Part shown: positions 30,801-63,986 of the stretch, in pieces
Layout of the letters: the number at the start of each line of letters is the position of its first letter
Position numbering within the stretch: the stretch's first letter is position 1
NCBI RefSeq assembly: GCF_011044495.1
Contig: NZ_CP049143.1
Span: 3,224,001 to 3,288,000, forward strand
DNA: 64,000 bases
Origin: Roseimicrobium sp. ORNL1
GTDB lineage: Bacteria > Verrucomicrobiota > Verrucomicrobiia > Verrucomicrobiales > Verrucomicrobiaceae
Reading direction: 5' to 3'
Position numbers and translations under genes: made by a program
The notes under the pieces: model-generated
What the model saw: the letters and a program-made list of their open reading frames with translations, nothing else
What the model was told of the DNA's origin: nothing
Databases searched by the model: none

Positions 30801-33800
30801 CCATTCGCCGTGATTGATCAAGCCGGTGATGATGGCGCCCTGCAAGGCAGCTGCCTTGGTCTTGGGACGCTCGGCCAGCGTGGAGAGCATCGTGCCCACA
30901 TTGTAGGCATCGCGATCATTGAAGGAGCCGCCACGACCGTAGCGCGTGCTCACAAAGGCGCTCATGCGCTCAGGCCAGCGGTTCTGATGGGAACCGAGAT
31001 AGGTGGCAATTACCTGCTGGATGAATGCAGCCGTGTCCGCCTCCGGTGCGAGCTTTGCCCGGGTTTCGAGATACAGTTGAAAGTAGCTGCCCTCGTTGTA
31101 GCTCGAGGTGCCTTTCATGAGGGATATCATCGGCTTGTCCAGCACGGGACCGCGGAGCTTGCGTTCGTCCCAGCGGTCCACCAGCCACACGGCGTGTTCG
31201 AGCTGGCGGTAACCCGAGCCAGAGCTTCCTGCGGTTGCGGTACGAAGGAAGGTTTCCGCAGAGTCGGAGAAATCCTGCGGTTCACTGGTCCACACACGCA
31301 CCCTTGTTTTCAGGAGGGCAAATTCGCTGCGGTCCATCGACTGCTGCACGGCGGGGAGGATCTCCGACTCGATGGTTGAAGCCTGCCCATTCTTCCACGC
31401 GCGCCACACCAGAAACTCCGCCGGCTGCGGTCTCCAGAGCGCGGTGATTTCCTCGTAGGCGGAATACCTGCGTGGCTGCAACGGAGTCGGCATCTGACCG
31501 GAGGAATAGAATGCCTTTGATTTCGCGACGAGCTCCGTGGCCAGCGCAGCCAGCTCCTCGACATTGCCGCCCTCGTGCAAGACCAGTCCTGCATGCCAGG
31601 CGAATGCCGAAGGGGCCAGACGTGGATAGAGCATCATGGCCTTGCACAGCCGGTCCATTGCGGCGCGGCGCACCTTGAGCTCTGGAGCGTCTGGTTTGAC
31701 GTAGTTGTAGCGTTTGTCGTCGTAGGGGTCCCTGTCGTACAGGTAGGGCAGGGACTTGCCGCCTCCATATGTGCGGCGGGCCAGCATCGCCGGGAGTTCC
31801 TGCACCCAGTCCAGGTCCGTGCGCATGCGCCGCGCGGCCTCATCACCGGCGTGCTTCTCCAGCACGGCGGACATGGCATTGAAGAGCGCCGCGCGGACAT
31901 CCGTGGTCATGTTGCTGTCATTGGACAGTTCCACGATGATGTAGCCCAGTGCTTGGTTGAAGGCCTTGAGCGGCACGGTTTCCAACAGTGTGATGGCCTT
32001 CTGGGGATCCGTCGGGGCCATCAGCACGAGCAGGCGGATGCGTGAGATGTACGAATCCGGGTGCTTCTGCACGAGATCTTCATAGACCTGGCGCGCGAGT
32101 ACCTTTTCGCCGGCAATCTCCAACAGAGAGGCGTATTCCTCCTGCCTTGCGAGAGCCGCGCCAAGGCCGGGATTGAGGGCGGCCACGAGTTTCGTTTTGG
32201 CGTCGGGGAAGTTCAGCCGTCGCATGAGCGTGGCGCCTTCCTGAACTGCATAGCCGCTGTTGCCATCCCAATAGGAGGAGCGGATGGTGCGCAGTTCAGC
32301 GACGACCGCCTTGATGGCCTCGGCCGGATCGTTCTTGGCCAGGGCCTTCTCCACTCGGGTGCGGCTGGTTTGCCGCGAATAGCCTCCCGAACTTCCACGC
32401 TGGGGCTGGGGAGTCGGAGCCAGCGCGGCCAGCCGCTTCCATTGCTCTGACTCCTCCTTGAGCCCGAGGGTGGCAAAGGCCTCGGCGAGTTCATCACGCT
32501 GCCGGGCATCCAGCTTGGCGCTTCGCAGGCGCCTCGCGGCCTGCTGACCCGCCTCTGCGAAGGGTGCCATCTTCTCCTTTTCCTTCAGGTTCGTGACAGC
32601 ATGGACGATTGCGGCATCCACCTCGGCACGGCGGGCGCCGTCCATGGGGAATGCCTGCATGCGCACCAGCAGCTTCAGCGCGCGCTCATGGTCCCCGGCG
32701 GTACCTGCGTAGCTGGCTGCGAGGAGCAGGTCATCGAGCGTGACATCGTCCCTCCCGGAGCGGGCCTGGAGTTCCTCCTCCACGCGCTTGCTCTGACTGG
32801 CTTTGTACGCCAGGGCGATGCGCATGGACGGATCCTCCACCTTATCCAGCAGGGGAACGATGGCGGCATAGTCATCCTCCGGTCCGGGGCGTGCATAGTT
32901 TTGCGAGCCCGGATTGAAGGGGTCCACGAACTGCATCATCATCGAGAACAGGCCCGGCAGTGAATCGCTGGTAGGGAAGGGAAGGGGACGCAGCAGTGCG
33001 CTGTTTTGGGACGAAGAACGGTAGCTCCAGGCCTTCATCGATTTCTGCGTCGCGACATCTGCTTCACGCAGGGTTTTCATGAAATGATTCCACAGGGTGA
33101 TGTAATCCTCCCACGCGCCTTCGGCCCGGCAGGCATTTGCCGAGTAGAGGATGGAATAGTCAAACGAACCCGGCTTCGCCGGAGGTTGGGTGGTGAAGTT
33201 TCGCACCATGGCCGCGCGCAGTTTCTTTCGGAGCGGATCCGGCAGGTCGATGCGCTGCTGCTCCACCCGGCTGCTGTTCTGGCCGCCACCCAGCATGCGG
33301 GCGAGCTCACTGGTGAGAGACGCATTGATGTCCTTTGCGTTCTCCATGTCAGCCAGTGCCTTCTCCAGCATGGGCAGCCCGACGTCAGTATCCGATTTCA
33401 CAGCGGCAACGGCTGCCCGGAAGGCCGGGAGCGGATACTTCTCCTTGAGAACGTCGAACGCCGCCCGGCATTGTTCGATGGGAAGGGTCCGGCTGCCGCT
33501 CCCGCTCCCACCGTTGAATTCCACGCCGAACATTTGCAGGAGTGGATCCGAGGGGTTTGCCTCCAGAGCCTCCTCCACCACGGTCACGTTCCATGAGGCC
33601 TGCTCATTTGGCTCGAATGCCAGAAGCACCTTCACCTGCCCCGTGCCGGATGCCTCGAGTGATGTGGCGATGCGCGTTCTCTCTGCAGTATCAGCATCCG
33701 CGTGGAGCTGAATGAGATTGGCCAGGGCGTAGCGTCTTGCGGTCGAGACATCCTTGGGAACCTTCACTCCGGAGGACAAGGCCGTGCTGCTACGTTGATA

Positions 33801-36773: not shown

Positions 36774-36948
36774 GGCGGCAGATCTTACCCGGGTTTGGTT
36801 TCCGGCAGCAAGCGCGATTCTGACGTGCATGGATTAACTTTTGTTCACAAGAAGGGCGCTAATTTACAAAGGAACCACCACCACTGGGCTACCCAACTCG
36901 ACGCACCTTTGCCGTGAGGCTGGAACACCGCTTTCCCTGCGCTCCATC

Positions 36949-42152: not shown

Positions 42153-42400
42153 GAAGCGCTTTGCGTCTTGGAGTGCGGTGGCACAGGCCTCCCTTGAGGC
42201 GGCGACACCGCGTTGAACGGAGGAATCTCGACCTGATGTTCCAGAGAACTTCAGTGAAATCCAGCATCCCAAGCTTCCTGCGGGAGATCATTTTGGGAAT
42301 TGCAATGCCGTCCCGCATCCGTAGCGTTCATTCTCTTCGTTCAAAGCGGTGTCGCGCCTTGGCGCTTGCCGCCGCGCTCCAAGACGCAAAGCGCAGATTC
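42153..42400. repeat. MITE-like inverted-repeat element, family 2
   Basis: The gap 42053-42465 contains no gene but has two inverted arms of about 62 bases (42153-42218 and 42339-42400). Both carry GCTTTGCGTCTTGGAG and GACACCGC, in opposite orientations, with a few mismatches between them. The spacer of about 120 bases has no coding character. The element differs in sequence from family 1. It could fold into a large cruciform or stem-loop and end transcription from the RND operon. No other copy was noticed in the window. Confidence 0.75.
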
Positions 42401-42465
42401 AAGTCGGGAAGACTGGGTCACCTGCACGGTTCTTGTCCAGATGCCTTTCTTTCCTCACACCCGCC

Positions 42466-46185: not shown

Positions 46186-46258
46186 GCACCCGTAGCTCAA
46201 TGGATAGAGCATCTGACTACGGATCAGAAGGTTACACGTTCGAGTCGTGTCGGGTGCA
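46186..46258 (+). tRNA. tRNA-Arg (anticodon ACG)
   Basis: The sequence folds as a full cloverleaf of 73 bases. The acceptor stem is GCACCCG / CGGGTGC with discriminator A. The D arm contains GCTC-AATGGATA-GAGC. The anticodon stem is TCTGA / TCAGA with loop CTACGGA (anticodon ACG). The T arm is ACACG-TTCGAGT-CGTGT. CCA is not encoded. It reads CGN arginine codons through inosine. The gene stands at the border between host backbone and the accessory island, and its 3' end is the probable integration site. Confidence 0.95.
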
Positions 46259-46309
46259 CTTTCACTCTCAGCAAGTTACGCTGAGGATGCTCGACCAGTT
46301 GAGTCGGCT

Positions 46310-46863: not shown

Positions 46864-46942
46864 ACCATGCATTAATGGTTCGACTTTGCCATAAGTTCTC
46901 GTGTTGAGGGTAGTTCGTCCTATAGGCTTCAGAAAACTTCGT

Positions 46943-49900
46943 ATGGTCAACGACGCCGTCAGATATTCCCGCGCCGGCGACCGTTTTCACTACCTCTGGG
47001 CTGCACGCCAATGCCTTGAATTGATTGACCTCCGGTCATCTGTAGAAGCAATTACGGTTGAAGGTTCACCGGAACCGACTGCGGCAGGGGAATTGGTGAT
47101 CGACGTGGGGAAAGTGCTGGCCGCTGGCGGTGGCGCGAAATCGGTGCAGTATTTCCAACTCAAACACTCGACATTAAAAACATCGAAGCACATTACGTTT
47201 TCTGAACTCGCCCACACAATGGCTGGATTTGCGGAACGGTTTCGGCATGGGCGTTCCAAGAAAGCCGCGAAGTTCTCAATTACGGAATTCTCCATCATTT
47301 CGAACCGGCAGGTCAGTCCTACGGTGAAAAATGGATTTCAAGCCATCGCTGCGGGTGCAAAGGCACATCCGAAGTTTTCCGCGGATCTCAAGAAAACGAC
47401 CAAGCTCTCGGCGGCTGACTTAAAACTATTTTGTAGCGCGGTTTCGTTCAGGGACGATGAGGGCGATTACCTTCAGCAGGAGAGGGAACTCAAATTCGAA
47501 ATCGCGCCGTACTCGACCTCCGGCTATGAAGACACCGAGGTGCTCAAGCTTGTCGGCATGGTTACCGAGCACGCACTTCCAGAATCCAAGGGCAGGCGGA
47601 GGCGAGGGGCGATAGTAAGAGAGGACGTTCTCAAGCGTCTGGGAGTAGATCACACCAGAGACCTATTTCCTGCGCCTTCCGCGATGGAATCCATCGATGC
47701 GACGTTCTTACGTGAGCAACACGCTGAATTTATTCGTAAGATTAAGGATGCCCCACGGCCCGTCATCCTACACGCGCCTGGCGGGGTGGGGAAGTCGGTG
47801 GTTGCGCAGCAGTTGGCTCGTTCCTTTCCCAAGGGCTCTGTGGGGATTGTCTACGACTGTTTTGGAGGAGGCAACTACTTAAACGAGGCCGAACCTCGAC
47901 ATCGTGCTTGTGACGCTCTCGTTCAAATCGCGAATGAACTCTCGGTGCAGGGTTTGTGCCGAACGCTGCTTGCCAATGCCACGACTCCGCGAGACGTTGT
48001 GATTCGCAGCTTTCTCACACGAGTCAAAGAGGCATGTGAATTGATACGCAGACGTAGCCGCAGCGCTCTGCTTGTCATTCTGGTCGATGCCGCTGACAAC
48101 GCAGAAATGGCAGCAGATGCGGCCAATGAGCCTGGATTCCCGCAAAGTCTCATCCGCCAAGCCTTTCCTGAGAATTGCAGAGTTGTGTTTCTTTGTAGAA
48201 CAGAGCGACGTGAACTACTGAGGCCCCCGACAAAGACCCCGCAACTGCCGCTCAAGCCCTTCAGCCTATCTGAAACGCGCCGTCATTTAAGAACGAGGTT
48301 CAGTAAGGCCAGCCAGGCCGATGGAGTAGAATTCTTCAGGCTTACTGGAGGAAATCCGCGAGTCCAGGCAAACTGTCTCGCAGCGAGGAGTAGCAACGCC
48401 AGGGAGATGTTGGCTTCGTTGGGACCTGGACGGACGACTGTTGACCAACAGATCGCAAAGCAGCTTGATGCTGCCATTTCAAGTCTACGTGATCAGCATA
48501 CCAAGATCGTCGCGGCGCAAATTGATTCAATCTGTAGAGGACTGGCCACACTGCCACCTTTCATTCCAATCCCTGTGCTTGCCGCGGCAGCAAACGTAGA
48601 TGTTGATGCAGTTAAGAGCTTTATAAGCGATCTAGGACGCCCGTTATGGCACTCAGACGATTCCGTTCAATTTCGTGATGAACCCGTCGAGACATGGTTC
48701 CGAACTACCTATGCCGCCTCCAAAGATGAAATTCGGGTATATGCTGAAGCCCTTGAGCCACTCTCTTCCTATTACTCATACGTGGCTCGTGCATTGCCGG
48801 GACTGTGGCATCGCGCCGGTGACCATGATCGGCTAATTGCGATCGCCTTGTCCGATGACTACCTGCCGGAAGAGAATCCAATTGATGTGAGGGATGTTCG
48901 AATCTTTAGACTTCAATATGCGTTCAAGACCGCTCTAAGAGCGAAACGACTCTCCGATGCGGCGAAGGTCGCCCTGCGAGCGGGAGAAGAAATGGCAGGC
49001 AACGACCGGCAGCTTTCGTTGCTGCGGGGCAATATAGACCTAATGGGGGTGTTGCAGGAGCCACATCGCATTCAGGAATGCGCTTACAAGCGCCTTTTAA
49101 AAGGAGGGTGGGCGGGAGCGGAAAACGCCTTCGCAGCCTCTCTACTATCCTCACATTCGGACTTTCATGGCGAAGCTCGGAACTATCTCAATTCTGCTTT
49201 CGAGTGGCTGCACATTCATTTTGAAGAACGAAAAAGACTCCGCAAAGAGCACCCGCACTATATTGACCCACTCTCAGTTTCGGACGTTGTTGAGCTTGCC
49301 TGGGCTGAACTGAATCTATCTGGGACCAAATCGGTGACCAACTATATCTGTAAATGGTCACCCTCTGAATGGATACTTGATATCACCACTTCCGTTGTCA
49401 GGAGGTTGGTGGATGCTGGGCGCTTCAAGGAAATCGAAACCATGGCCCGACATGGAGCCGTGAACGCTCACTTCATAGTCGGATTGGGCGATGAGCTCCT
49501 GAAGAGTTCCAAGCTTCCACCCAAATCTGCCTTACGTTGGACGCTCGATCAATTTGAGGCTGGAAAGGTGCAGATTAACCGCCCAAATGCTGATCCGCTG
49601 ATAGACTATGACACCCCGGCGATTGTTAGCTTTGCGGAAGCATGCGCCTTCCATCGACTCCCATCAGCGAAGATCCTGCTGGTCCTGGCGCCAGCGCTGA
49701 CCATGCCCTCTCTGCATCGTCTCACTAGCGACTACGACACGCTTCGTCGACATACGTTTTCACGGGCTGTTGCCCTCAAAGCAGCATTAGAAGGGAGCGG
49801 ACTTCCGGACATTAAAGTTTTGGTTCCTGACGTTGCCATTGAGGTTAGACAGAATGCCCATTCTGCAGAAGAAAGGCAGAACGCCAGAAGGATGCTATCG

Positions 49901-52900
49901 GCATTGCTCCCACTCTATCATGTCCGAGCCCAAGTGCTCATTGGGGCATCAAACTCACAATCGCTTGATGTGATGGATGTCAAGGTTGCTCAAGAGGATT
50001 CGGCTACCGATTACTGGTCGAGTTCAAGGATTGACTGGTTTTGGGATGAGTTGCTTGGAGTGCGCCTTTCGGTGTTGGCTCTCAAAGGCACTATTTCCCC
50101 AAGCGAATTCAAAGAACTAAAGGCGCAGACCGAAGGTTCGAATGGTCGATTGCGTAGGTTGTTCAATCGCAACTCGATGGCGCGCACGGCCTATCGTCAC
50201 GACCACCTTGTTGAAATTGGACAAGTATGCGAGCGCAGTTGCGTCGCCATCATTGGCGCTGAGCATTCTGAGGAGCCAGAGCAACGCGCAGGTTGGTTCA
50301 TAAGCCTCGCCAGGGCGGTGCTTTCCTTCAATTTGACAGAAGCTTCGGCGTATTTCTGCAAATCAATTGATGCCGTCTCGAAGTTTGGTGATGAGATCCT
50401 GGAAAGATGGGATGCGGTTGGAGCTATTGCTAGGCGAGCAGGTGACGATGCTCCGGAGTTGCCGGAGGTGGCGTATCGCTTTGTTCGCTCAGCGGAGATG
50501 GTAGGCGATACAATTGCCAGGGAAAAGTATTGGGACAGATCAGAAGTATTCCGAATAGCCGTGCGACTGCATGCTCCATCTGCGTTTTGTGCGTTGAGTC
50601 GGTGGCGAGATCGTGACGTAGGTGACTTCCCTGATGAGCTGAAGGCTCTGGCTATCGGATCGATCCAGAACGGAAGCCTCAATCATGTTTCAGGATTCTG
50701 TGTTACAGGCTTTAGCGGCCCGAAAGGTTCGGTAAAGCTTTTGCGGGAATGTATCCAGCGCGAACCCAATGCTGACCTGCGACAGCGGATCTTTGATGTT
50801 TTTGTGGAAGATGCCTATGTGGAAAGTGAGCTGATCGATATTGAATCCAAGCTTGAGAATGTGGCACATGATGGGGAGGTCAAGCTTGAGAATCTTCGCA
50901 AGATGGTCGACATAGCGAAGCGTACCAGACCCCAAATCACGGATTCGTCCAAAGAACAGGGCCACTATGGGGAAGTGCAAGAGGCAGTTGCAGAATGGGT
51001 TCTCCCAGGAATTGAACGACTGGACCTTGCAAGCGTTGCGGGGATAGCAAAGGCTGTTTTAACGCTAGAGGCTTCGAAACGTCGTTGGGAACATGCGAGT
51101 TTCTGGCCTGCAGTAGTCGATAGAATCCCGCGTGGGCGCGAAATTGAATTCTTGAAGGCCGTTGTCCAGGTGAAGCAAGTAGGGTGGCTGGACATGCGCC
51201 ATGTGCTAACGGCTGCTCGGGAGAAGTGGAAGGAACTGATGTCTTTCCAACGACACTGGCCGTCAGTCCTGCGGTCTGTCGGGAGGCGGTTTTACGTAGA
51301 GCTTGCTGGCCGAGGTGGTCTTGATTACTGGACCGATGGCGCGCGATTTGAAGAGTTGGACATTGACTCAGTCAAGCATGGTATTCACGAGGGCATTGAA
51401 GAGGCATCTGCGCTGTTGGACAGCGGTTCGCTCTTTGGCTTTGTCGCGGTACTGGCGAAGCGGTTGTCCTGTGCAGAAGCGCGTGATGTTCTAAACTTCG
51501 CTTTGCAGCGATTTGAGGTCTATATCGACCCGGACTACGCGGATGGAGCTTGGGAACCATGGCTTCAGCCCCCACGGGATACCGGTGCTGCCTTTGCGGG
51601 ATTGTTATGGGCGTCCCTCGGCGCACCTGACTCAGGCGTGCGGTGGGAAGCCGCTCACTGTGTCCGTCGGTTGGTGGAGTTTGGATGTGTCCCTGAGCTT
51701 GGAGCGTTGTTGCAACGAATCAATGAGGATGACGTGGCAGCTTTTCTGGGTAAAGGCCATGCGTTCTACCCTCTTCACGCTCAGCTATACACACTCATAG
51801 GCTTGTCCAGGGGCGCATTGAACAATGTTGAGGTCCTGATACCACATTGTGAGGTGTTCACGCGTATGGCACTTCATTCCATTCCTCATGCCCTAATTCA
51901 ACCGCTCGCCGCCAAGCTCGCTCTCGCCATTGGCGCTGTGGTTCCAGGGACGCTAACTCCAACCGACATTGCTTCATTGCAAGCGGTTGGAGTTAGCCCA
52001 TTTCCCCTCCGTCACCCGGAAGAAGCGGAGAGTTTTGACAGCCCGTTCCACGGAGCGGGACTCGTCGTTCCCGCGGAAGCTCCCGGCTTTGAATTGGACT
52101 TTGACGCCTATTGGTTGCCGTCTCTCGCCAGCGTCTTCGGAGTGCCCAACGGTCAGATTGATGATTTGATGCGGATTGCCTCAGTGAGCAATCTGGGTGT
52201 CGTTGCTCTACGTGGCCAACACCCGGTCGACACGAGGCGAGAACAGTGGAATTCGCAGAATTACTACTCACGTGGAACCTCTCATAGCCACGGTTCATAT
52301 CCTCGTGTGGACACATTCGACTTCTACTATTCCTATCATTCTTTGATGATCGTTGCCTCCAAGCTATTAGCGGCTATGCCCGTAATCTACCGTTACAATG
52401 ATGAAATGGGCGAACGTAACCGGTGGAGGGAGTGGGTCGCACGACACGGACTAACCCGAAGTGACGGGCGATGGCTCTGCGACCGGCGAGATCCTTCATT
52501 GCCGTCGCGGAAGCGGGGAGACACCCCTTACGGACGGATAGAATGGTTGTGCGGTGTTGTAGCTGGCGACTTCTTCGAGGCACTTACCGCTCAAGCTACA
52601 ATTGCTGGAGGACTATGCATCAGCGGATCTTGGCACGACGGCAACTCCAGCAGACAGGAGCACTTTACAGTTTCCAGCGCTTTCGTGCGTCCAGAAATGC
52701 AATCGTCACTAGCGAATGCCCTGCGCACTGCAGAGCATCCCAATCTTGTGGTTACTACCTCTTTTGAGGAGGCCCCTGAGTCCCCATTTGATTTGATGAT
52801 TTGGATTGCAGAACCGGGCGGAGGAGATTCTCGACTTGATGCATTTGATCCACATGCGAACAAACTCTCATACCCTGTTCGTAAAGTGGGACCTCAGGTG

Positions 52901-53248
52901 GTACACGACTATGGTCTGACATCAGATCCTGAAAACAGATACTGGTGGTGTCCAGGCTCCCCTGACCCGGTAGTAATTGCTGAAGCTTGGAGCGAGGGTG
53001 GGAGAGATGAGCGCTATGTTGGACAGCGACGTGGCGAGAGAGTGTTCATATCCGTCGAATTTTTAAAGTCACTATGCAAGCGGTATGGGAGGTCACTGAT
53101 CCTTCTGGTGCAAATCCATCGCTACGAATCCAGGGGCGGCAGCCATGACGATGATGGTTTTTCCTGGTTGCCTAGATCCCATAAAGTTTTCATTTTCTCC
53201 GAAGATGGACTCCTCAAAGACTCCAGAACAGATCATCGAATTGGGTAA
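46943..53248 (+). CDS. Avs-like STAND NTPase with N-terminal Cap4-type nuclease (AVAST type III candidate)
   Basis: The ATG at 46943 gives 2101 residues; a GTG at 46901 is possible. The N-terminal domain (about 1-200) has a PD-(D/E)XK layout of the Cap4/DUF4297 type: E40, D54 (ELVIDVGK) and Q72-L-K74 (VQYFQLKHS). The NTPase core has Walker A APGGVGKS at about 278-285, Walker B VILVDAADNAE with D382, and an Arg at the end of the next strand (FLCRTER, about 415-421). From about 550 to 1750 the protein is helical and TPR-like, the presumed phage-protein sensor. A distinct C-terminal part follows. In known Avs proteins, binding of a phage terminase or portal causes tetramerisation and DNA cutting. 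Size and the overlapping small partner gene fit Avs3. The target is not predictable here. Confidence 0.78.
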   Translation: MVNDAVRYSRAGDRFHYLWAARQCLELIDLRSSVEAITVEGSPEPTAAGELVIDVGKVLAAGGGAKSVQYFQLKHSTLKTSKHITFSELAHTMAGFAERFRHGRSKKAAKFSITEFSIISNRQVSPTVKNGFQAIAAGAKAHPKFSADLKKTTKLSAADLKLFCSAVSFRDDEGDYLQQERELKFEIAPYSTSGYEDTEVLKLVGMVTEHALPESKGRRRRGAIVREDVLKRLGVDHTRDLFPAPSAMESIDATFLREQHAEFIRKIKDAPRPVILHAPGGVGKSVVAQQLARSFPKGSVGIVYDCFGGGNYLNEAEPRHRACDALVQIANELSVQGLCRTLLANATTPRDVVIRSFLTRVKEACELIRRRSRSALLVILVDAADNAEMAADAANEPGFPQSLIRQAFPENCRVVFLCRTERRELLRPPTKTPQLPLKPFSLSETRRHLRTRFSKASQADGVEFFRLTGGNPRVQANCLAARSSNAREMLASLGPGRTTVDQQIAKQLDAAISSLRDQHTKIVAAQIDSICRGLATLPPFIPIPVLAAAANVDVDAVKSFISDLGRPLWHSDDSVQFRDEPVETWFRTTYAASKDEIRVYAEALEPLSSYYSYVARALPGLWHRAGDHDRLIAIALSDDYLPEENPIDVRDVRIFRLQYAFKTALRAKRLSDAAKVALRAGEEMAGNDRQLSLLRGNIDLMGVLQEPHRIQECAYKRLLKGGWAGAENAFAASLLSSHSDFHGEARNYLNSAFEWLHIHFEERKRLRKEHPHYIDPLSVSDVVELAWAELNLSGTKSVTNYICKWSPSEWILDITTSVVRRLVDAGRFKEIETMARHGAVNAHFIVGLGDELLKSSKLPPKSALRWTLDQFEAGKVQINRPNADPLIDYDTPAIVSFAEACAFHRLPSAKILLVLAPALTMPSLHRLTSDYDTLRRHTFSRAVALKAALEGSGLPDIKVLVPDVAIEVRQNAHSAEERQNARRMLSALLPLYHVRAQVLIGASNSQSLDVMDVKVAQEDSATDYWSSSRIDWFWDELLGVRLSVLALKGTISPSEFKELKAQTEGSNGRLRRLFNRNSMARTAYRHDHLVEIGQVCERSCVAIIGAEHSEEPEQRAGWFISLARAVLSFNLTEASAYFCKSIDAVSKFGDEILERWDAVGAIARRAGDDAPELPEVAYRFVRSAEMVGDTIAREKYWDRSEVFRIAVRLHAPSAFCALSRWRDRDVGDFPDELKALAIGSIQNGSLNHVSGFCVTGFSGPKGSVKLLRECIQREPNADLRQRIFDVFVEDAYVESELIDIESKLENVAHDGEVKLENLRKMVDIAKRTRPQITDSSKEQGHYGEVQEAVAEWVLPGIERLDLASVAGIAKAVLTLEASKRRWEHASFWPAVVDRIPRGREIEFLKAVVQVKQVGWLDMRHVLTAAREKWKELMSFQRHWPSVLRSVGRRFYVELAGRGGLDYWTDGARFEELDIDSVKHGIHEGIEEASALLDSGSLFGFVAVLAKRLSCAEARDVLNFALQRFEVYIDPDYADGAWEPWLQPPRDTGAAFAGLLWASLGAPDSGVRWEAAHCVRRLVEFGCVPELGALLQRINEDDVAAFLGKGHAFYPLHAQLYTLIGLSRGALNNVEVLIPHCEVFTRMALHSIPHALIQPLAAKLALAIGAVVPGTLTPTDIASLQAVGVSPFPLRHPEEAESFDSPFHGAGLVVPAEAPGFELDFDAYWLPSLASVFGVPNGQIDDLMRIASVSNLGVVALRGQHPVDTRREQWNSQNYYSRGTSHSHGSYPRVDTFDFYYSYHSLMIVASKLLAAMPVIYRYNDEMGERNRWREWVARHGLTRSDGRWLCDRRDPSLPSRKRGDTPYGRIEWLCGVVAGDFFEALTAQATIAGGLCISGSWHDGNSSRQEHFTVSSAFVRPEMQSSLANALRTAEHPNLVVTTSFEEAPESPFDLMIWIAEPGGGDSRLDAFDPHANKLSYPVRKVGPQVVHDYGLTSDPENRYWWCPGSPDPVVIAEAWSEGGRDERYVGQRRGERVFISVEFLKSLCKRYGRSLILLVQIHRYESRGGSHDDDGFSWLPRSHKVFIFSEDGLLKDSRTDHRIG

Positions 53249-53912
53249 GGCTCTCGTGGCTACTCTAGAGGCCGAAGGCATTGATACGCTATCCGCGTGG
53301 ATGGCGCACTACATCGCGGAGCTGATGGAGGCTGCTGATAAACCCGGGGAGGACAGAGCAGATGCGCAGGAACGCTGTTTTGAGGCGATTCTTCGGCTGT
53401 GGAAACACCGTGCCTCGATGCCGTCTGGTCGCCGTCCATTCGAAGCGTTTGATGTAATTATTCAGACCCTAGACCGACTCAATCCCGATGACCCTCGGAC
53501 CTACTACTTTGAAATGTGGCGACGGAGAGGGCCAAAGGACTCTTCTGATGAAAAGAAGGATGCAGTCGAGAAGATGCTGGAAGTAGCGATGGCGGCAGAT
53601 CGCGCGGCCCGAATTGTAATTCAGTACCTCATATCCGTTGCAGTGGACGGGCGCATTGATGACCTAACACGAACTCTGCTGAAAAACGCCGTCGGGGACG
53701 AAGACGCTTTGGATGTTGACGCCTACAACAAACTGATTGCAGACCTTGCTGCCGGCAAGGCTGACTTTGGGGCAAAGGAACGCGATGCGTTGAAGCGCAA
53801 AATTGAACAGCTAGACCTGTTCCTAAAACTGGGGCAAGGAGTGAGGGAGATGCTTGTTGGGACAGTGGGTGCTTCCGAGCCATCCAATTTGGCTGATTCC
53901 AAGCTCGACTGA
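53205..53912 (+). CDS. small partner of the Avs-like NTPase (Avs3b-like candidate)
   Basis: The ATG at 53205 gives 235 residues and overlaps the end of the NTPase gene by 44 bases in another frame, so the two are co-transcribed and probably translationally coupled. The protein is helical. Characteristic are LSAWMAHYIAELMEAAD (about 30-46) and 'CFEAILRLWKHRASMPSGRRPFEAFDVIIQTLDRL' (about 58-92), a pattern I associate with small genes next to very large ATPases in defence islands. The C-terminal half is charged and possibly a coiled coil. There is no signal peptide or enzyme motif. In AVAST type III a second gene of similar size accompanies the NTPase. Assignment is by context and general resemblance. 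Confidence 0.65.
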   Translation: MDSSKTPEQIIELGKALVATLEAEGIDTLSAWMAHYIAELMEAADKPGEDRADAQERCFEAILRLWKHRASMPSGRRPFEAFDVIIQTLDRLNPDDPRTYYFEMWRRRGPKDSSDEKKDAVEKMLEVAMAADRAARIVIQYLISVAVDGRIDDLTRTLLKNAVGDEDALDVDAYNKLIADLAAGKADFGAKERDALKRKIEQLDLFLKLGQGVREMLVGTVGASEPSNLADSKLD

Positions 53913-55610: not shown

Positions 55611-58600
55611 ATGTCTCTTGGTCATCCTCACAGCACTGGATCCGGCGGAGTGGACTTTGAACGTCGGATAGTGACGTTACTCGTCTGTCAGGCACTCGCA
55701 GGAATGACGTCAGTCCCATTGGCTCAGAGCGGGAATTCTATTTGGCTGCAGTGCGGCCATTTGGGAACCGGAATTGACGATGTACTCGTAGAAACCTACG
55801 ATGCGGAGAACTCATGTGTTGGAAACAGATGCTACTGGTCCATTAAGACAACGGTAACCTTTACTGCGAGTGACCGTGAGTTTCAGGAGTTTTGCAAACG
55901 GGCCTGGGAACTCTTTCAAGACACAGACCGCTTCGATGTAACACGGGATTGGATCGCCTTGGGAGTATCTACGACGAGAGCACCAAGGGTTCGACGTCTA
56001 GTAGATCTCGCAGAGCTTGCTCGGTCCTGCCATGGCAGTGAAGATCTTCTTCATCGTCTGTCGATCCGGAAATACCACAGTACGGAATTGTCGGACCTCT
56101 ACACGACAATAAAGCATCTTGTTGGTGTTGTAGATGACCCAACCGGGGATTCGCGGATGCTGGGGTTCCTCAAAAGGTTGTATGTTGCCTCCTTCGATCT
56201 GGATCAAGACGCGAGCCAGGACAAAAGCCGCACATTGGTGATGCTGTCGCTGGCGCTCTCAGGAACGCCGGAAGCCGCTGCTATGTGTTGGAATGCAGTC
56301 TTTGACTTCATTTCGTCGAATTCCGGAAAGGCAAAGCATATCAACGAAGAAGACCTGCGGCGGTTGGGGGCGGAGCAAGGAGTAGAGCTTGAGATAGATC
56401 GACTCCGGGAGCTGCGACTGGCAAAATTGCGTAGGCACTGTGGTGTTACTCGCGGTCAGATTGAGCCACGTCTCCGGGTCACGAACATGCACTTGGAACG
56501 AAGGCTCTTGCTTGAAGAAATCCAACGATGCTTAAATGAGTCACGCGTGGTGTTGGTTCGGGGTGCTGCTGGCTCTGGAAAATCGGCCGCAGCTCTTCAA
56601 GCTGCAGAAGAGTGTGCTGGATGTGCTCAGACATTTTGTTTCCGTGCAGAGGAGTTTCTCTATGTGCATCTGGACACAGCTTTGCACGCGGCAGGTCTCT
56701 CCGAGACGGCATGGGATGAATGGACCGCGCTGCTGCCAGGAGCGGTAGCCGTGGTGCTAGTGGATGGAGTGGAGCGATTGCTGCAGCGTGAAGAAAGCCG
56801 CGAGGCCTTCGCCGATTTACTTCGCACACTGCAAAATCAAGTGCAATGGAAGCTCCTTCTTACCTGCCGAGAGTCTTTCGCGGAAACACTAACCTATGAA
56901 CTTTTGGGCTTCGGCGTATCGGCCGCGTTGGTCAATGTTCCGAAGTTAGAGGAAACCGAACTCGACCAGGCACTTGCGGGCACAACGCTCGCACGCGTCG
57001 TGGAGCGGAATACAGGATTGAGACATTATTTGACAAATCTCAAGTGGCTGGACTTAAGCCTCTCGGCATTGCAGGGACTCCCAGAACAGTCCACCGCTAC
57101 TTGGAGTACTGAGTCCGCATGGCGGAAGCACGTTTGGCGACGACTGGTGTGGGAAAAGAATGGAGCAAGGCGAGAACGCTGCTTGGTGCATGTATCGCGA
57201 GCACGCCTGCAGGTTGCATCAGGTTGGGTCGAGGTTCCTGAATCTCTGTTTGATGTAGCGGAAAGCTTGGTAGCAGACGGTCTGCTGAGAAAGGCCGGGA
57301 CGCAATTCACGACTGCGCATGACCTTCTCGAAGATTGGACTCTTCTCACCTATCTAGATCAGGTGGCCGTCACAGCGCAGAGCTCGATGAGAGCTATGAT
57401 CGATGAGGTCGGTGATTTGCCGCTGATGCGCACCTGTTTCCGTAGTTGGCTAGGAGAGCAGTTGGACAACGGACATCCAGATGCACTAAGGTGGTTGGAA
57501 GCAGCCCTCTCTGCCAGCAATGGACATGAACGATGGCGCGAGGAAGCTCTGCTGTCACTACTTGGAGCACGCGAAGCTTTGGCTATTCTGAAGGCGACCA
57601 AGACACATTGGCTGGCTGAAGATGGGCGTTTATTTGCTGACCTACAGCGCAGTCTTCAGATGGCCTATGTCACTATGGAGGTGCATCCTGACTGCCGCCG
57701 CCCGCGAGGTCCTGGTTGGGCAGCAGTTCTAGATTTTGCGGCTCTTGAAAACAGAGCGTGGTTGCTTCAGCAGTTGGCAACGGTTTCGAAGGTGCTGATG
57801 GGATGGAAGGGAGCAGTAACGCAGATATGCCCACAACCTTCAGGGCTGCAGGCCGCCGGCAGGATCTTGCAAGTCATTTGGGAGGAGGTGACTGAACGAA
57901 GACTAGATTTTACCGAGCTGATTGCGTTTCCGGATAGCTACTTACATGACGACAAGGACCCCTTGGTGCAACTCATCAGTACGGTCGCTGCTACATTTCC
58001 AACATCATTTTTTGAAGCTTTGTCGGAGGAGGGGGATGATGTAGACGAGAGTCGTTGGCGGTACTCTGTGCTGGCCGATAGGGTGCTGACATGCGTGACA
58101 GGTACCTGCCTGAGCTATCACTTATCACGAGCTCAGCCTGAACTCGTGATGCGGTTGTTTCGCAAGCACTGGGGATTGACACCCTCTATACGAAGAGCTC
58201 GACGTGACCAGTACAGCAACGAGCGAGGACTCCTCGGAAACAGGCATTTTCGCGGCTCTTCAGCATTCGTTGGCCCATTCTTGGCGATGTTAAGGCATCA
58301 CCAGTCACATGGCATCGCATTCCAATTGGAGTTCCTGAACTTCTGCATACAAGAGGAGCGAGATTCTGGAGGTGATGGGATTGATGAGTTGGAGCTTTTT
58401 GAATTCACTATTGATGGCCGTTCGTTCTCTCAATGGGGACACCAAGGCTGGTGGCGTGCCTATCGCGGTCATAGTCCGCAACACCATTTGGAGGAGTCGG
58501 CGCTAATGGCGCTAGAAAAGTGGCTTCTGGAGGAAGTCTCTTCGCGCGACGAGTTAGAGACGATCTGTTTGAATCTCATGCAGAATTGCCAAAATCTAGG

Positions 58601-60728
58601 TCTGACCGCGGTCGTTTCCTCAGTGGCGATGGCATTCTCACGGAAATTCATGACGTTTCCGCTGCTTGTTCTACAGCAGCCTAGACTGTTTTCGTTGGAT
58701 CGGCGTCGCTACTTCAATGATCAAAGCAATCGCATGCTGCGAGATAGCGATGATTTACCCTATGAGGCACTGCAGGAGCGCAAGGAAGCAGATGGATTGC
58801 CGCATCGGGACACCCAGCTCGAGCACTACATCATTGAAGCACAATTCGGTCCTGCTCAAGAAAGTATTCAGAACGCGCTTTCGGGCCATAGTCGAGCCTT
58901 GGCAGCGATTGACGTCGAAGAATTGACGCCGCAAACGACTGATGAACTCAACACCCTTCGTTTGCTGATTCATAGGATCGATACGAGGAATCTCTCGGCC
59001 CAACCTCTGAACGACGGCACCGGTAGAATCGCGCTGGTAACAGCCCAATTGCCGGAAGACTTGGACGTCATAGTCAAAGAGGCCGATGAGTCCTACAGTA
59101 CATACGCTCAGGTGCAGTCTGCTTTTTTATGGGCTTCACAAATGTTCGATGAGTATCGAACCGCAGACAGAAGTAGATGGAAAGAGATGTTGCGCGCAGT
59201 GCAACACATGATGCCCAAAGATCCAAACGCAGAATTGCTCTTTGGGGCTGTTCCTGCACAGATTGCTGCTGCGTGCGTGACTTTCTGTTGGGATGAGATG
59301 AGCCAGGAGCAGCTCACATGGTGTTGCGAAACATTGGCAGATTGCCTAGGCAAGGAAGAGTCGGTGACTACTTGGTCAGGGCGAGGGGTTCCAGTCGTCC
59401 GCGGTATGGGCTTTGCCCATGTGGCACATGGTGTTGGTGTGGTCTGTGGTAAGCTGGACTCAGATCATCCCCTAAAACTATCGTTCCTTGAGCGTTGCGC
59501 GATTGGCCTTTCTCATCCGGAAAAGAATGTGGCGGAATCGACGGCGGCTGGCTTGGCCAGCGTGATCGACATGGTGGTTGCGCAAAAGCTCCAACTTGCT
59601 GCAGCTGCGCTAATGTTTGGTCACGCAAGAGCGGAACACGAAGTCAACTACAAGTTCCGAGGTCCCAATGGACCACCGGACTTGAATTGGGAAGAGCGCC
59701 GAGATGCAATGCACGCAGAACTGTTGGGCCGGGTTCGTACCCTGCGCAGATCCTTTGTGAACGGAGAATCGGTAAACGTCGCAAGTCTTGAGCGCGTTTT
59801 CATCAAAGGGTTTATGGGACATCAGAGGCTGGCGAGCACTCTGCGATTACTTGTTCATCATGACACCAATGTGGCTCGGAGAGTTTTTAAACGAGCGTCT
59901 AAGTGGCTCTTCTGCGCTTGGGCGGATGGAACGAGCAGGCGATCGCGACGGCGAAGGAATGACGAATTACATTTAGTAGGTCGTGACGCACGGAATGCAG
60001 TGACTGTCGGGGAGGCGAGTCGCACGATTGCATTGAGGGCGCTAAGCATGCCGAACGAAGGTGAGCAGCTCATGCGCCAGCTCACCCGGCGGCTACGGAT
60101 TGCCTACTTGGGAATGAATACCCGCGAGATACTAGGCGAGCTTGTTTTCGCTGCTGATGCCTGTGGGGCGAGGGAAGCGTTCTGGAAACTTTGGCGAGAA
60201 TGTCGGGATGCGGCACGCCTCCTGGGCCATTTTCTTGGTAGTGAGGATAAGTGGGTGCATCTTGGGGTGCCGGAGCAAACGGCCCTAGAAGCTTACCATT
60301 CGTTGTTGTCTGCGCTATTTTTTAACGGAATGCACTTCCGCGAGAATGATTCTTGGGAACCCTTGGAAGGTCACAAGGACGAAGTTCAAGAGGCTTTTGT
60401 TCTAATGGGCCCAATTGCACTGACACGGTTCGTCAGATTCTTGAGTATTTTGGGCGGTTCCCTGTTGCCTCAAGCGTGGGAACGGCTGGCTGAAAGCATT
60501 GCACAGCTTCAGGGCAGGATCTCTTTGTCTGTTGTGGTCACACCTTCGATCCATCCGATACTTTTGCGACTTATCCAAGGTGAAATTAGTCAGCAGAGAA
60601 TTCCGCAGCAGAACCATCAGAGTTGGAGTTTTATTCAGGAAATTCTGGATGTTCTCGTCAATCAGGGTAGCCCGGAAGCATTTCATTTGCGAGAGACAAT
60701 GACGCGGAGGAAACTGCGCCCTGCGTAA
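55611..60728 (+). CDS. giant STAND-like NTPase with atypical nuclease-like N-terminus
   Basis: The ATG at 55611 gives 1705 residues; the frame is open for 19 more codons upstream. Residues about 10-110 follow the Cap4-like nuclease pattern 'GGVDFERRIV...LAQSGNSIWLQCGH..GIDDVLVE...CYWSIKTTVTF'. It has E17, D56/D57 and K79, but the QxK motif reads S77-I-K79. The P-loop is GAAGSGKS at 318-325, Walker B is VVLVDGVERL with D385, and a TCRE segment (about 418-421) sits where STAND proteins have their sensor. Beyond about 550 there are over 1100 residues of helices, presumably a sensor. It is likely a defence protein activated by a phage component. It is not closely similar to the other NTPase, and no partner gene of the Avs3b kind follows. 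Confidence 0.75.
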   Translation: MSLGHPHSTGSGGVDFERRIVTLLVCQALAGMTSVPLAQSGNSIWLQCGHLGTGIDDVLVETYDAENSCVGNRCYWSIKTTVTFTASDREFQEFCKRAWELFQDTDRFDVTRDWIALGVSTTRAPRVRRLVDLAELARSCHGSEDLLHRLSIRKYHSTELSDLYTTIKHLVGVVDDPTGDSRMLGFLKRLYVASFDLDQDASQDKSRTLVMLSLALSGTPEAAAMCWNAVFDFISSNSGKAKHINEEDLRRLGAEQGVELEIDRLRELRLAKLRRHCGVTRGQIEPRLRVTNMHLERRLLLEEIQRCLNESRVVLVRGAAGSGKSAAALQAAEECAGCAQTFCFRAEEFLYVHLDTALHAAGLSETAWDEWTALLPGAVAVVLVDGVERLLQREESREAFADLLRTLQNQVQWKLLLTCRESFAETLTYELLGFGVSAALVNVPKLEETELDQALAGTTLARVVERNTGLRHYLTNLKWLDLSLSALQGLPEQSTATWSTESAWRKHVWRRLVWEKNGARRERCLVHVSRARLQVASGWVEVPESLFDVAESLVADGLLRKAGTQFTTAHDLLEDWTLLTYLDQVAVTAQSSMRAMIDEVGDLPLMRTCFRSWLGEQLDNGHPDALRWLEAALSASNGHERWREEALLSLLGAREALAILKATKTHWLAEDGRLFADLQRSLQMAYVTMEVHPDCRRPRGPGWAAVLDFAALENRAWLLQQLATVSKVLMGWKGAVTQICPQPSGLQAAGRILQVIWEEVTERRLDFTELIAFPDSYLHDDKDPLVQLISTVAATFPTSFFEALSEEGDDVDESRWRYSVLADRVLTCVTGTCLSYHLSRAQPELVMRLFRKHWGLTPSIRRARRDQYSNERGLLGNRHFRGSSAFVGPFLAMLRHHQSHGIAFQLEFLNFCIQEERDSGGDGIDELELFEFTIDGRSFSQWGHQGWWRAYRGHSPQHHLEESALMALEKWLLEEVSSRDELETICLNLMQNCQNLGLTAVVSSVAMAFSRKFMTFPLLVLQQPRLFSLDRRRYFNDQSNRMLRDSDDLPYEALQERKEADGLPHRDTQLEHYIIEAQFGPAQESIQNALSGHSRALAAIDVEELTPQTTDELNTLRLLIHRIDTRNLSAQPLNDGTGRIALVTAQLPEDLDVIVKEADESYSTYAQVQSAFLWASQMFDEYRTADRSRWKEMLRAVQHMMPKDPNAELLFGAVPAQIAAACVTFCWDEMSQEQLTWCCETLADCLGKEESVTTWSGRGVPVVRGMGFAHVAHGVGVVCGKLDSDHPLKLSFLERCAIGLSHPEKNVAESTAAGLASVIDMVVAQKLQLAAAALMFGHARAEHEVNYKFRGPNGPPDLNWEERRDAMHAELLGRVRTLRRSFVNGESVNVASLERVFIKGFMGHQRLASTLRLLVHHDTNVARRVFKRASKWLFCAWADGTSRRSRRRRNDELHLVGRDARNAVTVGEASRTIALRALSMPNEGEQLMRQLTRRLRIAYLGMNTREILGELVFAADACGAREAFWKLWRECRDAARLLGHFLGSEDKWVHLGVPEQTALEAYHSLLSALFFNGMHFRENDSWEPLEGHKDEVQEAFVLMGPIALTRFVRFLSILGGSLLPQAWERLAESIAQLQGRISLSVVVTPSIHPILLRLIQGEISQQRIPQQNHQSWSFIQEILDVLVNQGSPEAFHLRETMTRRKLRPA

Positions 60729-60866
60729 CGAATGTCCCAAAAGGGACGTCGCGGCACGCTTGGAGGTGGAGGTGGCGAAATCCTTGCGCCACGGTCCCTG
60801 GAGGGCGTTGATTCGGTGATGTGAGCAGTGGAAAGGCGAAGTCTCTTTAAAACGATATCCATCCCT

Positions 60867-61667
60867 ATGTCTGAGTCACAAACCTTCGAGGACGTCACAA
60901 TCTATTCCCATCAGCACACGACGATCCAAGGGCTGGGTATTATGCGCTCGCTCCTTGGTTACTCGCGGATCGAGGCTCGACGTGTCACGGTGAAAGTCGA
61001 ATCATACGCGCAATATACAAGAGCCGTTTCCGTTGCTTTCGTTCCGAGGGGGAAACGAAGCGAGAGAAGCTACAATGAGGCGAGTCGTGTCACTACGGTC
61101 ATCCTGAAGGGCTACGATCATCCTGACGTGCCACACAAAATTGGCTCAGGTCCCGAACCTCTCCTCGATGAAAAATGGCACGAGGAATTTGCACTTTTTC
61201 TCAAAGATTATCGGCTGAAGCCCAGTGTGGAGGTTCTTCTTGATTTAAGGGAGGACGACACTAAGCCGATTCACCCGCCTCCTTCTATTCCTTCGTATAG
61301 ACCGGCGAAGGCGGTTCAGTTCCTCGAGGGCAAGGCATTGTCGGTCTGGGAAGGGCAGCCGGTTGTACGCGAGCATCTGCGCCGAGAACGCAACAAGGCT
61401 ATTGTCCGTGCTAAGAGAGAGGAGGTACTTCGCTTAACAGGGAAGCTCGAATGTGAAGCCTGCGGATTCGATTTCACTGCGTTTTACGGGATAGACTTCT
61501 GCGAGGTACATCACCTTCGCCCCCTCGCTGAGAACCATGGTGCGGTGGAGACAAAGCTCGAAGAGCTTGCAGTGGTCTGCTCCAACTGCCATAGGGTCAT
61601 TCACCGACGTTCCCCGTTCCTTACAATTCAAGAACTTCGGGCAATAATTCAGTCTCGTCGGGTATAA
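60867..61667 (+). CDS. HNH-endonuclease-like protein
   Basis: The ATG at 60867 gives 266 residues; the frame begins 13 codons earlier. The C-terminal domain (about 175-250) has a zinc-binding HNH pattern: C196-x2-C199 (CEACGF), H215-H216 (CEVHHLRPLAE), C238-x2-C241 (VVCSNCHRVIHR), with Asn240 and His246 as the N and H. This matches McrA-type HNH nucleases. The N-terminal 150 residues are an unknown domain with mixed helices and strands, possibly for recognition of a substrate or modified base. It follows the giant NTPase by 138 bases, so co-expression is possible but not certain. It could be a restriction-type nuclease or part of the same system. Confidence 0.8.
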   Translation: MSESQTFEDVTIYSHQHTTIQGLGIMRSLLGYSRIEARRVTVKVESYAQYTRAVSVAFVPRGKRSERSYNEASRVTTVILKGYDHPDVPHKIGSGPEPLLDEKWHEEFALFLKDYRLKPSVEVLLDLREDDTKPIHPPPSIPSYRPAKAVQFLEGKALSVWEGQPVVREHLRRERNKAIVRAKREEVLRLTGKLECEACGFDFTAFYGIDFCEVHHLRPLAENHGAVETKLEELAVVCSNCHRVIHRRSPFLTIQELRAIIQSRRV

Positions 61668-62153: not shown

Positions 62154-63986
62154 ATGGCAGAAAATCGTCCCCGCTGGCTCCGTGACTTGGTCCGCTTCCT
62201 CCCGCTGCGGAGTCAGTTCGTGCTGTGTGGGAATGTCCGTGACCAGTATCCAGTGGAGGTGCAGCCAGGGGTGGTCGCTCCTTTACCACTGGTGTCTTGC
62301 GTGGGCATTGAACTGCTGAGGCAGGGAATGGCCCATTTTCTGGCGTTTGACCCCGCGCAGGGTTTTTCCGTGCCAGTGATTTTTGGGCTCGACCCTCAAG
62401 CAGAGCGTGAGTTCTTCGCGAAGATACTGGGCCTCACCTTTGGCGAAAATGGACGCGCCGCAGCGACGCCGGAGCGTTTTTTTGAGCTGCTTGAGGTCAT
62501 CGTCCGGCATTCTGCTGAGCCTATCGTCCTCTTTGCCGATTTTGCCTCGCGACTGCTTATCCGGGCGGATTTGCCGAGCGAGGCAGAGCAGCGCGGATTC
62601 ACCAGGGCGCTGGTGCTCTCCCATCAGGTGTTGCCGCGCCCGATGGGCTCGGAGGGTAGACCGTTCTTCAATCCGGTAATCTGGATCGTCGACAAGGAAG
62701 GTGACCTGCCAGACTGGTTTCTCGTAGGCAATCCGAAAATGCGGCACATCCCAGTGCCGCCTCCCGACCGAGCGGTGCGCCGCGTGATTATCGAGAATCT
62801 AGCCGCCACTTTGAAAAACAATCTCGGAGACGCACAGAAAGACCGCATGGTGGATCTCTTTGTGGAGTCCACCGAGGGGCTACTCGTCAGCGATCTAGTG
62901 GGTATCGCCCAGCTTTGTAGGAGCGAAGGACTGACTCTGGCTGAGATCGGAGAAGGCGTACGCCGGTACAAGCTGGGCGTCACCGAGGACCCATGGAAGA
63001 AAGTGGATCGAGAAAAGATTGGCCAAGCGGGTGCCCTGATCCATCGCCGGGTGAAAGGGCAGGCCCATGCGGTAACTCACATGCTGGATCTGGTGAAACG
63101 TGCTGTATCCGGTCTCGCAACCAAAGAGGGTGGGGGAGGGCGCCCTCGGGGGGTGGCCTTTCTGGCAGGCCCCACAGGTGTCGGTAAAACCGAACTGGCC
63201 AAGACCATCACCGAATTATTGTTTGGGGATGAGACCGCCTGCATTCGTTTTGACATGAGCGAGTTCTCTGCCGAGCACAGCGACCAGCGACTCATCGGCG
63301 CTCCGCCGGGCTATGTGGGATATGACGTGGGTGGGGAGCTGACGAACGCTGTACGGCAGAAGCCGTTTAGTGTGATTCTGTTCGATGAGATCGAGAAGGC
63401 GCATCCGCGTATTTTAGACAAATTCCTACAGGTGCTCGATGACGGTGTGCTGACATCCGGACGTGGAGAACGAGTGTATTTCTCCGAGGCATTTCTCGTG
63501 TTCACCTCCAATCTCGGTATTTACCGGCTTGACGCCCAAGGTGAGCGCGTACCGAACGCGCTGCCCACGGACTCCTACGAAACGGTGCAGGCGAAGGTGA
63601 AGGAGGAGATCGCACGGCACTTTAAGCTGACGCTGGGACGCCCGGAAATCCTCAACCGCCTGGGCGAGAACATCATGGTCTTTGACTTCATTCGCGATGA
63701 GGTGGCAGTGGAGATCTTTGACTCCATGCTTGATGGCCTGGCACAGAAGGCGCAGCGGTCGCAAGGTGTAAGCATCGAAATCTCCGCTGAGGCAAGGCAG
63801 TCCCTGCAAGTATTGTGTCTGGGGGATTTATCGAATGGCGGACGAGGCATCCGAAATCAGCTTGAGGTCCATTTCGTCAATCCACTGGCGCGACTGTTGT
63901 TTGATGCACAAGTCCCTTCGGGAGCCACCTTGCGCATCACAGGATTGCAACAAGGAGCGGCAACGACCTTGGAAGCTGCCTTCTAA
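62154..63986 (+). CDS. ClpB-like AAA+ ATPase with degenerate first domain
   Basis: The product has 610 residues. The first half (about 10-270) has the order of an AAA domain, with QFVLCGNVRDQYP (21-33), a Walker B-like PIVLFADFAS (123-132) and PVIWIVDKEGDLPDW (174-188), but no P-loop. The second half is a ClpA/B-type D2 domain: Walker A GPTGVGKT 339-346, pore loop GYVGY 386-390, Walker B ILFDE with D411/E412, arginine finger R502 (EILNRLGENIMVF) and a small C-terminal domain to 600. There is no Clp N-domain and no M-domain. It is probably a remodelling motor for a dedicated partner. Another ATG stands at 63996, so an operon likely continues past the edge. Confidence 0.85.
   Translation: MAENRPRWLRDLVRFLPLRSQFVLCGNVRDQYPVEVQPGVVAPLPLVSCVGIELLRQGMAHFLAFDPAQGFSVPVIFGLDPQAEREFFAKILGLTFGENGRAAATPERFFELLEVIVRHSAEPIVLFADFASRLLIRADLPSEAEQRGFTRALVLSHQVLPRPMGSEGRPFFNPVIWIVDKEGDLPDWFLVGNPKMRHIPVPPPDRAVRRVIIENLAATLKNNLGDAQKDRMVDLFVESTEGLLVSDLVGIAQLCRSEGLTLAEIGEGVRRYKLGVTEDPWKKVDREKIGQAGALIHRRVKGQAHAVTHMLDLVKRAVSGLATKEGGGGRPRGVAFLAGPTGVGKTELAKTITELLFGDETACIRFDMSEFSAEHSDQRLIGAPPGYVGYDVGGELTNAVRQKPFSVILFDEIEKAHPRILDKFLQVLDDGVLTSGRGERVYFSEAFLVFTSNLGIYRLDAQGERVPNALPTDSYETVQAKVKEEIARHFKLTLGRPEILNRLGENIMVFDFIRDEVAVEIFDSMLDGLAQKAQRSQGVSIEISAEARQSLQVLCLGDLSNGGRGIRNQLEVHFVNPLARLLFDAQVPSGATLRITGLQQGAATTLEAAF

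Follow-up and report, generated by a model that had tools for sequence, protein, structure and literature searches.

Based on the analysis presented here, we suggest that P0001, a protein of Roseimicrobium sp. ORNL1, is an anti-phage STAND protein of the Avs4 type which carries a Cap4/DUF4297-type effector with an altered, likely still active SxK site, and which would sense a phage portal protein, assemble as a tetramer and degrade DNA; we give this reading a probability of roughly 60 %. The gene lies in a stretch of 64 000 nucleotides (contig NZ_CP049143.1, positions 3,224,001 to 3,288,000), which as a whole is referred to here as the window and in which positions are counted unless stated otherwise. 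Its reading frame (55611..60728, + strand), defined by translation and by its Avs4 model matches, is intact and encodes 1705 aa with no internal stop. An alternative TTG start at 55554, 57 bases 5' of the ATG at 55611, would lengthen the protein; the ATG is favoured because the BLASTP matches of relatives to P0001 mostly start at residues 1-10 of the ATG form. An earlier reading, made from the sequence alone, had described a nuclease-like domain followed by a STAND NTPase and a long helical region, and this layout is borne out. The predicted N-terminal PD-(D/E)XK nuclease domain of Cap4/DUF4297 type comprises residues 1-260 (55611..56390; AlphaFold, Foldseek and VIA-align), the STAND NTPase core approximately residues 291-480 (56481..57050; nSTAND1 match at 2.7e-7, Avs4 models and conservation) and the helical sensor region residues 596-1705 (57396..60725; AlphaFold, Foldseek and profiles), with an Avs4 fold up to the C-terminus. 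The Walker A motif GAAGSGKS is found at residues 318-325 and the Walker B motif LVDGVE at residues 383-388, and their key columns are kept across the relatives in a 74-row alignment restricted to proteins of at least 1400 aa (one locus, L043, was left out).

From about residue 290 to its C-terminus, P0001 is an Avs4-type STAND NTPase and sensor. The PADLOC Avs4 model matches residues 291-1245 with an E value of 6.2e-77, and the NCBIfam Avs4 model NF041815 matches residues 291-1244 with 298.1 bits, which does not reach the equivalog cut-off of 1500; for comparison, E. coli Avs4 scores 2064.9 bits with this model and four other Cap4-type relatives score 368-590. The solved E. coli Avs4 (8dgf) matches residues 288-1240 (phmmer E 2e-31), and in a direct BLASTP comparison P0001 and an Avs4 from an E. 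coli plasmid share 21 % identity over 1025 columns. Pairwise sequence comparison traces the likeness as far as residue 1245, and profile and fold carry it on to the C-terminus. A profile made from 65 relatives with P0001 excluded scores 484.6 bits on residues 573-1697 of P0001 and 684.8 bits on E. coli Avs4, and a profile that includes P0001 (A4) matches 8dgf over 473-1586 (E 1.1e-204). The AlphaFold model of residues 596-1705 (pLDDT 81.8, pTM 0.83) matches 8dgf with a Foldseek E value of 9.6e-25 and superimposes on its chain residues 494-1587 with a Z score of 27.3 (rmsd 8.8, 998 aligned residues), and the next row is an unrelated helical protein with a Z score of 10.5. P0001 is therefore like E. 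coli Avs4 in the STAND NTPase and the whole C-terminal helical sensor, but differs from it in the N-terminal 290 residues, which have no Avs4-model match in sequence and a predicted Cap4-type fold; this fold matches Avs3, Cap4 and LmuA, and the absence of 8dgf from the list of fold matches excludes nothing. E. coli Avs4 itself is described as having an Mrr-type nuclease. The earlier suggestion that P0001 may represent an undescribed family of phage sensors goes too far, as both its NTPase and its sensor belong to the Avs4 type up to the C-terminus, even if the NCBI equivalog cut-off is missed by a wide margin.

P0001 shares its genomic island with an Avs3a protein (46901..53248, + strand; PADLOC 1421.9 bits), the first NTPase of the window, and the nuclease domain of P0001 has a predicted Cap4-type fold similar to that of Avs3, which could suggest that P0001 is itself an Avs3 member and a diverged copy of its neighbour. 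We give this explanation hardly any credence: BLASTP between the two proteins gives an E value of only 0.52, no PADLOC Avs3 model matches P0001 at an E value of 1 or better, and the sensor fits the Avs4 fold. An Avs3 identity is thus refuted, and the view that P0001 is not a copy of the first NTPase holds. It also holds that P0001 has no small partner of the kind that accompanies Avs3a, namely Avs3b (53145..53912, + strand; PADLOC and NCBIfam), as no second Avs3b-like gene was found among the neighbours scanned.

Avs proteins are built in three parts and sense phage portal or terminase proteins. The PDB title of 8dgf supports this background, as do passages of three published articles (PMC12931631, PMC11249213 and PMC10286901). 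If P0001 works like Avs4, its long helical C-terminal region would bind a conserved phage protein, the portal, and, as in Avs3 and Avs4, the protomers would build a tetramer with ATP bound. This assembly would pair the N-terminal nucleases, so that DNA is degraded and the infection aborted. A different trigger, such as terminase, a tail protein or some other phage protein, is a serious possibility for such an Avs4-related sensor, if one well short of even odds. The target may differ since P0001 is only 21 % identical to E. coli Avs4 and misses the NCBIfam cut-off, and other Avs types have been described, in a part of PMC12931631, as triggered by terminase, Ksap1 and JADA. However, the Avs4 fold of the sensor extends to its last residues, and Avs portal sensing is reported in a passage of PMC11249213 to tolerate portals less than 5 % similar in sequence, which argues for the portal as the trigger of P0001.

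On the structural model, residues 1-260 are a nuclease domain of the Cap4/DUF4297-type PD-(D/E)XK fold. The AlphaFold model of residues 1-300, made from 75 sequences, has a pLDDT of 87.6 and a pTM of 0.83, and its order of elements (helix 12-29, strands 42-46, 58-63 and 70-79, helix 89-103 and strand 114-120) is that of a PD-(D/E)XK core. The closest solved structures include LmuA (9nxx; Z 14.2, rmsd 3.2, 205 residues), Avs3 (8dgc; Foldseek 5.5e-5, Z 13.9, rmsd 3.9, 212 residues) and Cap4 (6wan; Foldseek 2.1e-4, Z 12.5, rmsd 4.0, 198 residues), followed by Hachiman (8zue, Z 12.0), DUF4297 (8zgi, Z 6.7) and the first restriction enzymes at about 6. Since the predicted fold contains this core, with Cap4 among the best solved matches, the objection that the core might be absent does not apply. 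When the nuclease-domain sequence profile (A3) was compared with PDB sequences, no Cap4 chain was found, and hence the link to Cap4 rests on the fold comparison. According to a passage of PMC11291478, nucleases of the Cap4/DUF4297 type in DUF4297-HerA and Avs3 are activated once assembly pairs them. P0001 shares with the nuclease domains of Cap4, DUF4297, LmuA and Avs3 the fold and the catalytic pair of D and K, but it lacks the D...QxK motif: the same source gives D40...Q53-x-K55 for DUF4297, and the Avs3a of the window has QLK, where P0001 has S77-I78-K79.

The residues named in the sequence-only reading are present as described, and the alignment of 74 relatives (A3) shows how unusual the site is. 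E17 (55659..55661), the acid of the first helix, is Glu in 68 of the relatives and Gln in six, the motif II acids D56 and D57 (55776..55781) are kept in all 74, and the motif III lysine K79 is kept in 73. At S77 of motif III (S77-I78-K79, 55839..55847) all 74 relatives have Gln, and at L101 (55911..55913) all 74 have Asp, as part of a WxDF motif. Of 23 columns with at least 90 % constancy among the relatives, 17 are kept in P0001, including E17, D56, D57 and K79; Gln77 and Asp101 are among the six that it has lost. A further acid, E93 (55887..55889; AlphaFold model and alignments), lies on the helix that follows, 13 residues beyond K79. Some relatives deviate at other positions: L115, L117, L124, L125, L127 and L133 have Gln at the position of E17 and keep D56/D57, Q77, K79 and D101, and L122 has Thr at the position of K79.

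Proteins with the same change were found in other members of the order. A profile of three SxK domains, searched against 372 genomes of the Verrucomicrobiales, gave matches in at least 11 genomes, at least five of which hold at least six SxK proteins in all; the search scores few candidates per genome, and these counts are therefore lower bounds. The six proteins are P0001, two 77 %-identical copies in one genome (G084) and one each in three further genomes (G209, G010 and G161), with open frames of 1745-1810 aa for the five other than P0001; the nuclease domains of the other six matching genomes carry QxK. A second set of 367 genomes, drawn from the phylum and overlapping with the 372, yielded no additional SxK protein, and the other matches in it (G409 and G552) are QxK proteins. 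The two copies in G084 (L134 and L137) are Avs4-like genes on the same contig (C44), with starts approximately 12 kb apart. In a joint alignment of the six SxK proteins with 26 of the 74 A3 relatives and eight of 14 rows of a second alignment (A2), E17, D57, S77 and K79 are present in all six SxK proteins, as is an acid at position 93 (five Glu, one Asp), and Asp101 is present in none. In the 34 rows without SxK, Gln77 and Asp101 are constant and 19 have an acid at position 93. A larger pool of 82 QxK rows, from which L036-L038 (duplicates of named loci), L137, L148 and L149 were left out, has Asp101 in every row and an acid at position 93 in 31; E93 as a feature of SxK proteins only was rejected on this ground. 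E90 was likewise considered as the replacing acid and dropped, because other SxK proteins do not have it. On the evidence of these alignments, the SxK/Asp101 change is a real variant represented by six proteins, and the original observation of a Ser at the Gln position is correct but too narrow, since Asp101 is also absent and an acid stands at position 93 in all six.

The six proteins are far from uniform. In the nuclease domain the identity of P0001 to the other five is only 17-20 %, and these are 26-81 % identical among themselves. Like P0001, these five have Ser77, the acid at position 93, E17, D57 and K79 and lack Asp101, but four of the five have Gly where P0001 has D56, and their sensors are far from Avs4, with 83-118 bits compared to 484.6 for P0001. 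A free tree of the NTPase columns of 39 sequences places P0001 apart from three other SxK rows, a tree in which the four SxK rows are held together is not rejected (AU p 0.126), and with the N-terminal columns the six SxK proteins form one side of a branch with a support of 0. A single event may have given rise to the SxK proteins, and for this reason the motif counts are not independent. Among the literature matches listed, in a coverage that leaves out most subscription journals, no SxK Avs nuclease is named in titles or the openings of abstracts.

The spacing of the remaining residues bears on how the change may affect activity. In the CCGG family of PD-(D/E)XK enzymes, the second acid is located on the helix after the lysine strand, in a pattern given as PDX21-53KX12-13E in a passage of PMC4652773, and a 'PD-XXK-E' form of the active site is mentioned in a part of PMC551604. 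The corresponding residues of P0001 are D57-X21-K79-X13-E93; in the AlphaFold model K79 ends the strand 70-79 and E93 lies on the helix 89-103. This spacing fits the pattern that the passage of PMC4652773 gives for CCGG-type restriction enzymes such as NgoMIV, Cfr10I and BsaWI. We do not claim a family relation between P0001 and these enzymes, only a possibly like solution for the active site. Given this match to the K-X12-13-E site, we consider an active, rebuilt site more likely for P0001 than a dead one. The replacement of Gln77 by Ser would then be part of a coordinated change, together with the absence of Asp101 and the presence of an acid at position 93, and the metal site would consist of E17, D57, K79 and perhaps E93 in a nuclease that is likely still active. 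In its most specific form, this idea holds that Gln77 and Asp101 were given up together in Cap4-type effectors of Avs4-like sensors in the Verrucomicrobiales, that E17, D57 and E93 beside K79 bind the metal in a CCGG-like manner, and that the SxK proteins are a separate lineage of phage sensors which arose once or twice; we consider this possible but doubtful. If the site is indeed rebuilt, the SxK sensor lineage would possibly differ in DNA specificity or metal use.

The opposite explanation is that Ser77 and Leu101 have made the N-terminal domain a dead nuclease and that P0001 acts in another way, for example by activating the HNH endonuclease-like protein encoded 3' of it (60828..61667, + strand; Pfam HNH 6.6e-6; an ATG at 60867 is also possible). 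This would be in agreement with the absence of two residues that are constant in 74 of 74 relatives, with the position of the HNH gene and with the very long branch of P0001 in two trees (2.44 and 2.37), which could reflect relaxed constraint. In addition, the Gln of DUF4297 is among the residues that were mutated to abolish activity; the nuclease-dead form described in the relevant part of PMC11291478 is, however, the triple mutant D40A/Q53A/K55A, in which Asp and Lys were changed as well. Against a dead nuclease, all six SxK proteins retain E17, D57 and K79 despite the low identity of P0001 to the others, and the 2-kb flanks of the relatives yielded no homologue of the HNH gene. We therefore regard a dead nuclease as unlikely. 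The earlier statement that activity may have been lost or changed can be narrowed to this extent, that the retention of these three residues in such divergent proteins speaks against loss, a matter which sequence alone cannot settle.

The combination of a Cap4-type nuclease with an Avs4-type STAND protein is widespread across phyla. A scan of genome contigs with the single P0001 sequence found no relative, and a scan with an alignment (A1) found 113, the best 80 of which were kept; these come from Planctomycetota, Acidobacteriota, Pseudomonadota, Bacteroidota, Chloroflexota, Methanothrix and others and are approximately 21-28 % identical to P0001 in their best segment. Two relatives were found in viral contigs and none in phage records at an E value of 1e-5. 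In 62 of these best 80 loci (61 distinct sequences), an open reading frame of 1550 aa or more includes a match to the N-terminal domain, and the BLASTP pieces reach residue 1238 of P0001 in 54 of the 62 and residue 1690 or beyond in 29. In eight long relatives that were scanned, the Avs4 models match from residues 263-325 on, compared with residue 5 in E. coli Avs4. Long proteins such as those of Herpetosiphon (L112), Pseudomonas (L066), Methanothrix (L053) and Opitutaceae (L060) have the layout of P0001, but, unlike P0001, all 74 aligned N-termini carry Gln77 and Asp101. In a tree of NTPase and middle columns (74 rows), the branch of P0001 is the third longest, at 2.44 compared to a median of 0.21; P0001 falls in a group of 40 rows (SH-aLRT 89) with 39 Cap4-type/Avs4-type proteins and away from E. 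coli Avs4, its exact place being unsure. In the 39-sequence tree, its end branch of 2.37 is the longest. One of the loci (L038:6494-11551, the same gene as L096) has an in-frame TAG that splits the nuclease (311 aa) from the STAND part (1374 aa), and this may be a two-gene form, an error or decay.

No conserved partner gene emerged from the flanks of these relatives. Among open reading frames of at least 100 aa within 3.5 kb of 74 loci, the largest shared family occurs in four loci and consists of recombinase-like sequences, and among those of at least 45 aa within 2 kb, an antisense overlap of the gene's own end recurs in seven loci and all other groups have three members or fewer; 63 of the 74 loci have more than 1.5 kb of sequence upstream and 63 of the 74 more than 1.5 kb downstream. 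None of the window neighbours of P0001 was found in the 2-kb flanks of the relatives. This includes a small XRE-type HTH protein encoded just 5' of P0001 (55154..55390, + strand; Pfam HTH_3 5.5e-12, reading from 55100), a possible regulator. When all open reading frames of at least 100 aa of the loci were compared, the sole match to a neighbour was that of a ClpB/AAA_2-type ATPase (62154..63986, + strand; domain scan) to one Avs4 relative itself.

The gene is located in a stretch of approximately 31.6 kb that is very probably a mobile defence island. A tRNA-Arg(ACG) gene (46186..46259, + strand; tRNA gene call), the attachment site of the island, lies 5' of Avs3a, and a 48-bp repeat (46215..46262, + strand) comprises the last 45 bases of this gene and three more. 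An exact second copy is found beyond the window at G000:C1:3301850-3301897 (L142:17851-17898). This copy, 31.6 kb downstream of the first, stands beside a tyrosine integrase gene, 118 bases past its start codon. Between the repeats lie Avs3a and Avs3b, the HTH gene, P0001, the HNH protein and the ClpB-type ATPase, and also genes for a radical-SAM-type protein, a 2096-aa kinase-helicase-nuclease and a DUF3987 protein. The 2096-aa protein (L142:4665-10955) has kinase, DUF4011, helicase and MTES_1575 nuclease domains and PADLOC matches to PDC-S37, Hhe and MkoA. In G063, a genome of the same genus, this tRNA and repeat (88 %) recur approximately 28 kb apart. The site there holds mostly different DNA, which is similar at the integrase end and in one stretch of 316 bases, with no other nucleotide match to the parts compared, and the genome holds no relative of P0001. 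The GC3 values of P0001 (0.534) and Avs3a (0.527) are low compared with those of two open reading frames outside the island (0.783 and 0.745). The tRNA gene, the repeat, the integrase, the defence cargo, the low GC3 and the different content in G063 together lead us to this assignment. Elsewhere in the window, a dispersed REP-like repeat is located at about 42157-42403; a query holding it matches its own genome at 111 places and G063 at 91, nearly all on the repeat stretch and in both orientations. On the - strand, positions 27870-36830 form an open reading frame of 2986 aa.

While the Avs4-type sensor is of a known kind, the SxK motif with the loss of Asp101, in P0001 and five divergent proteins of the Verrucomicrobiales, is new. 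Our findings show that many bacterial phyla, and archaea too, have Avs4-type sensors that carry a Cap4-type nuclease. The SxK proteins are a natural test of which residues a Cap4-type nuclease needs, as two otherwise constant residues are absent together and the rest are kept. In Roseimicrobium sp. ORNL1, the island sets Avs3 and Avs4-type sensors of phage proteins side by side in one mobile element, and this adjacency raises the question of whether such sensors complement each other.
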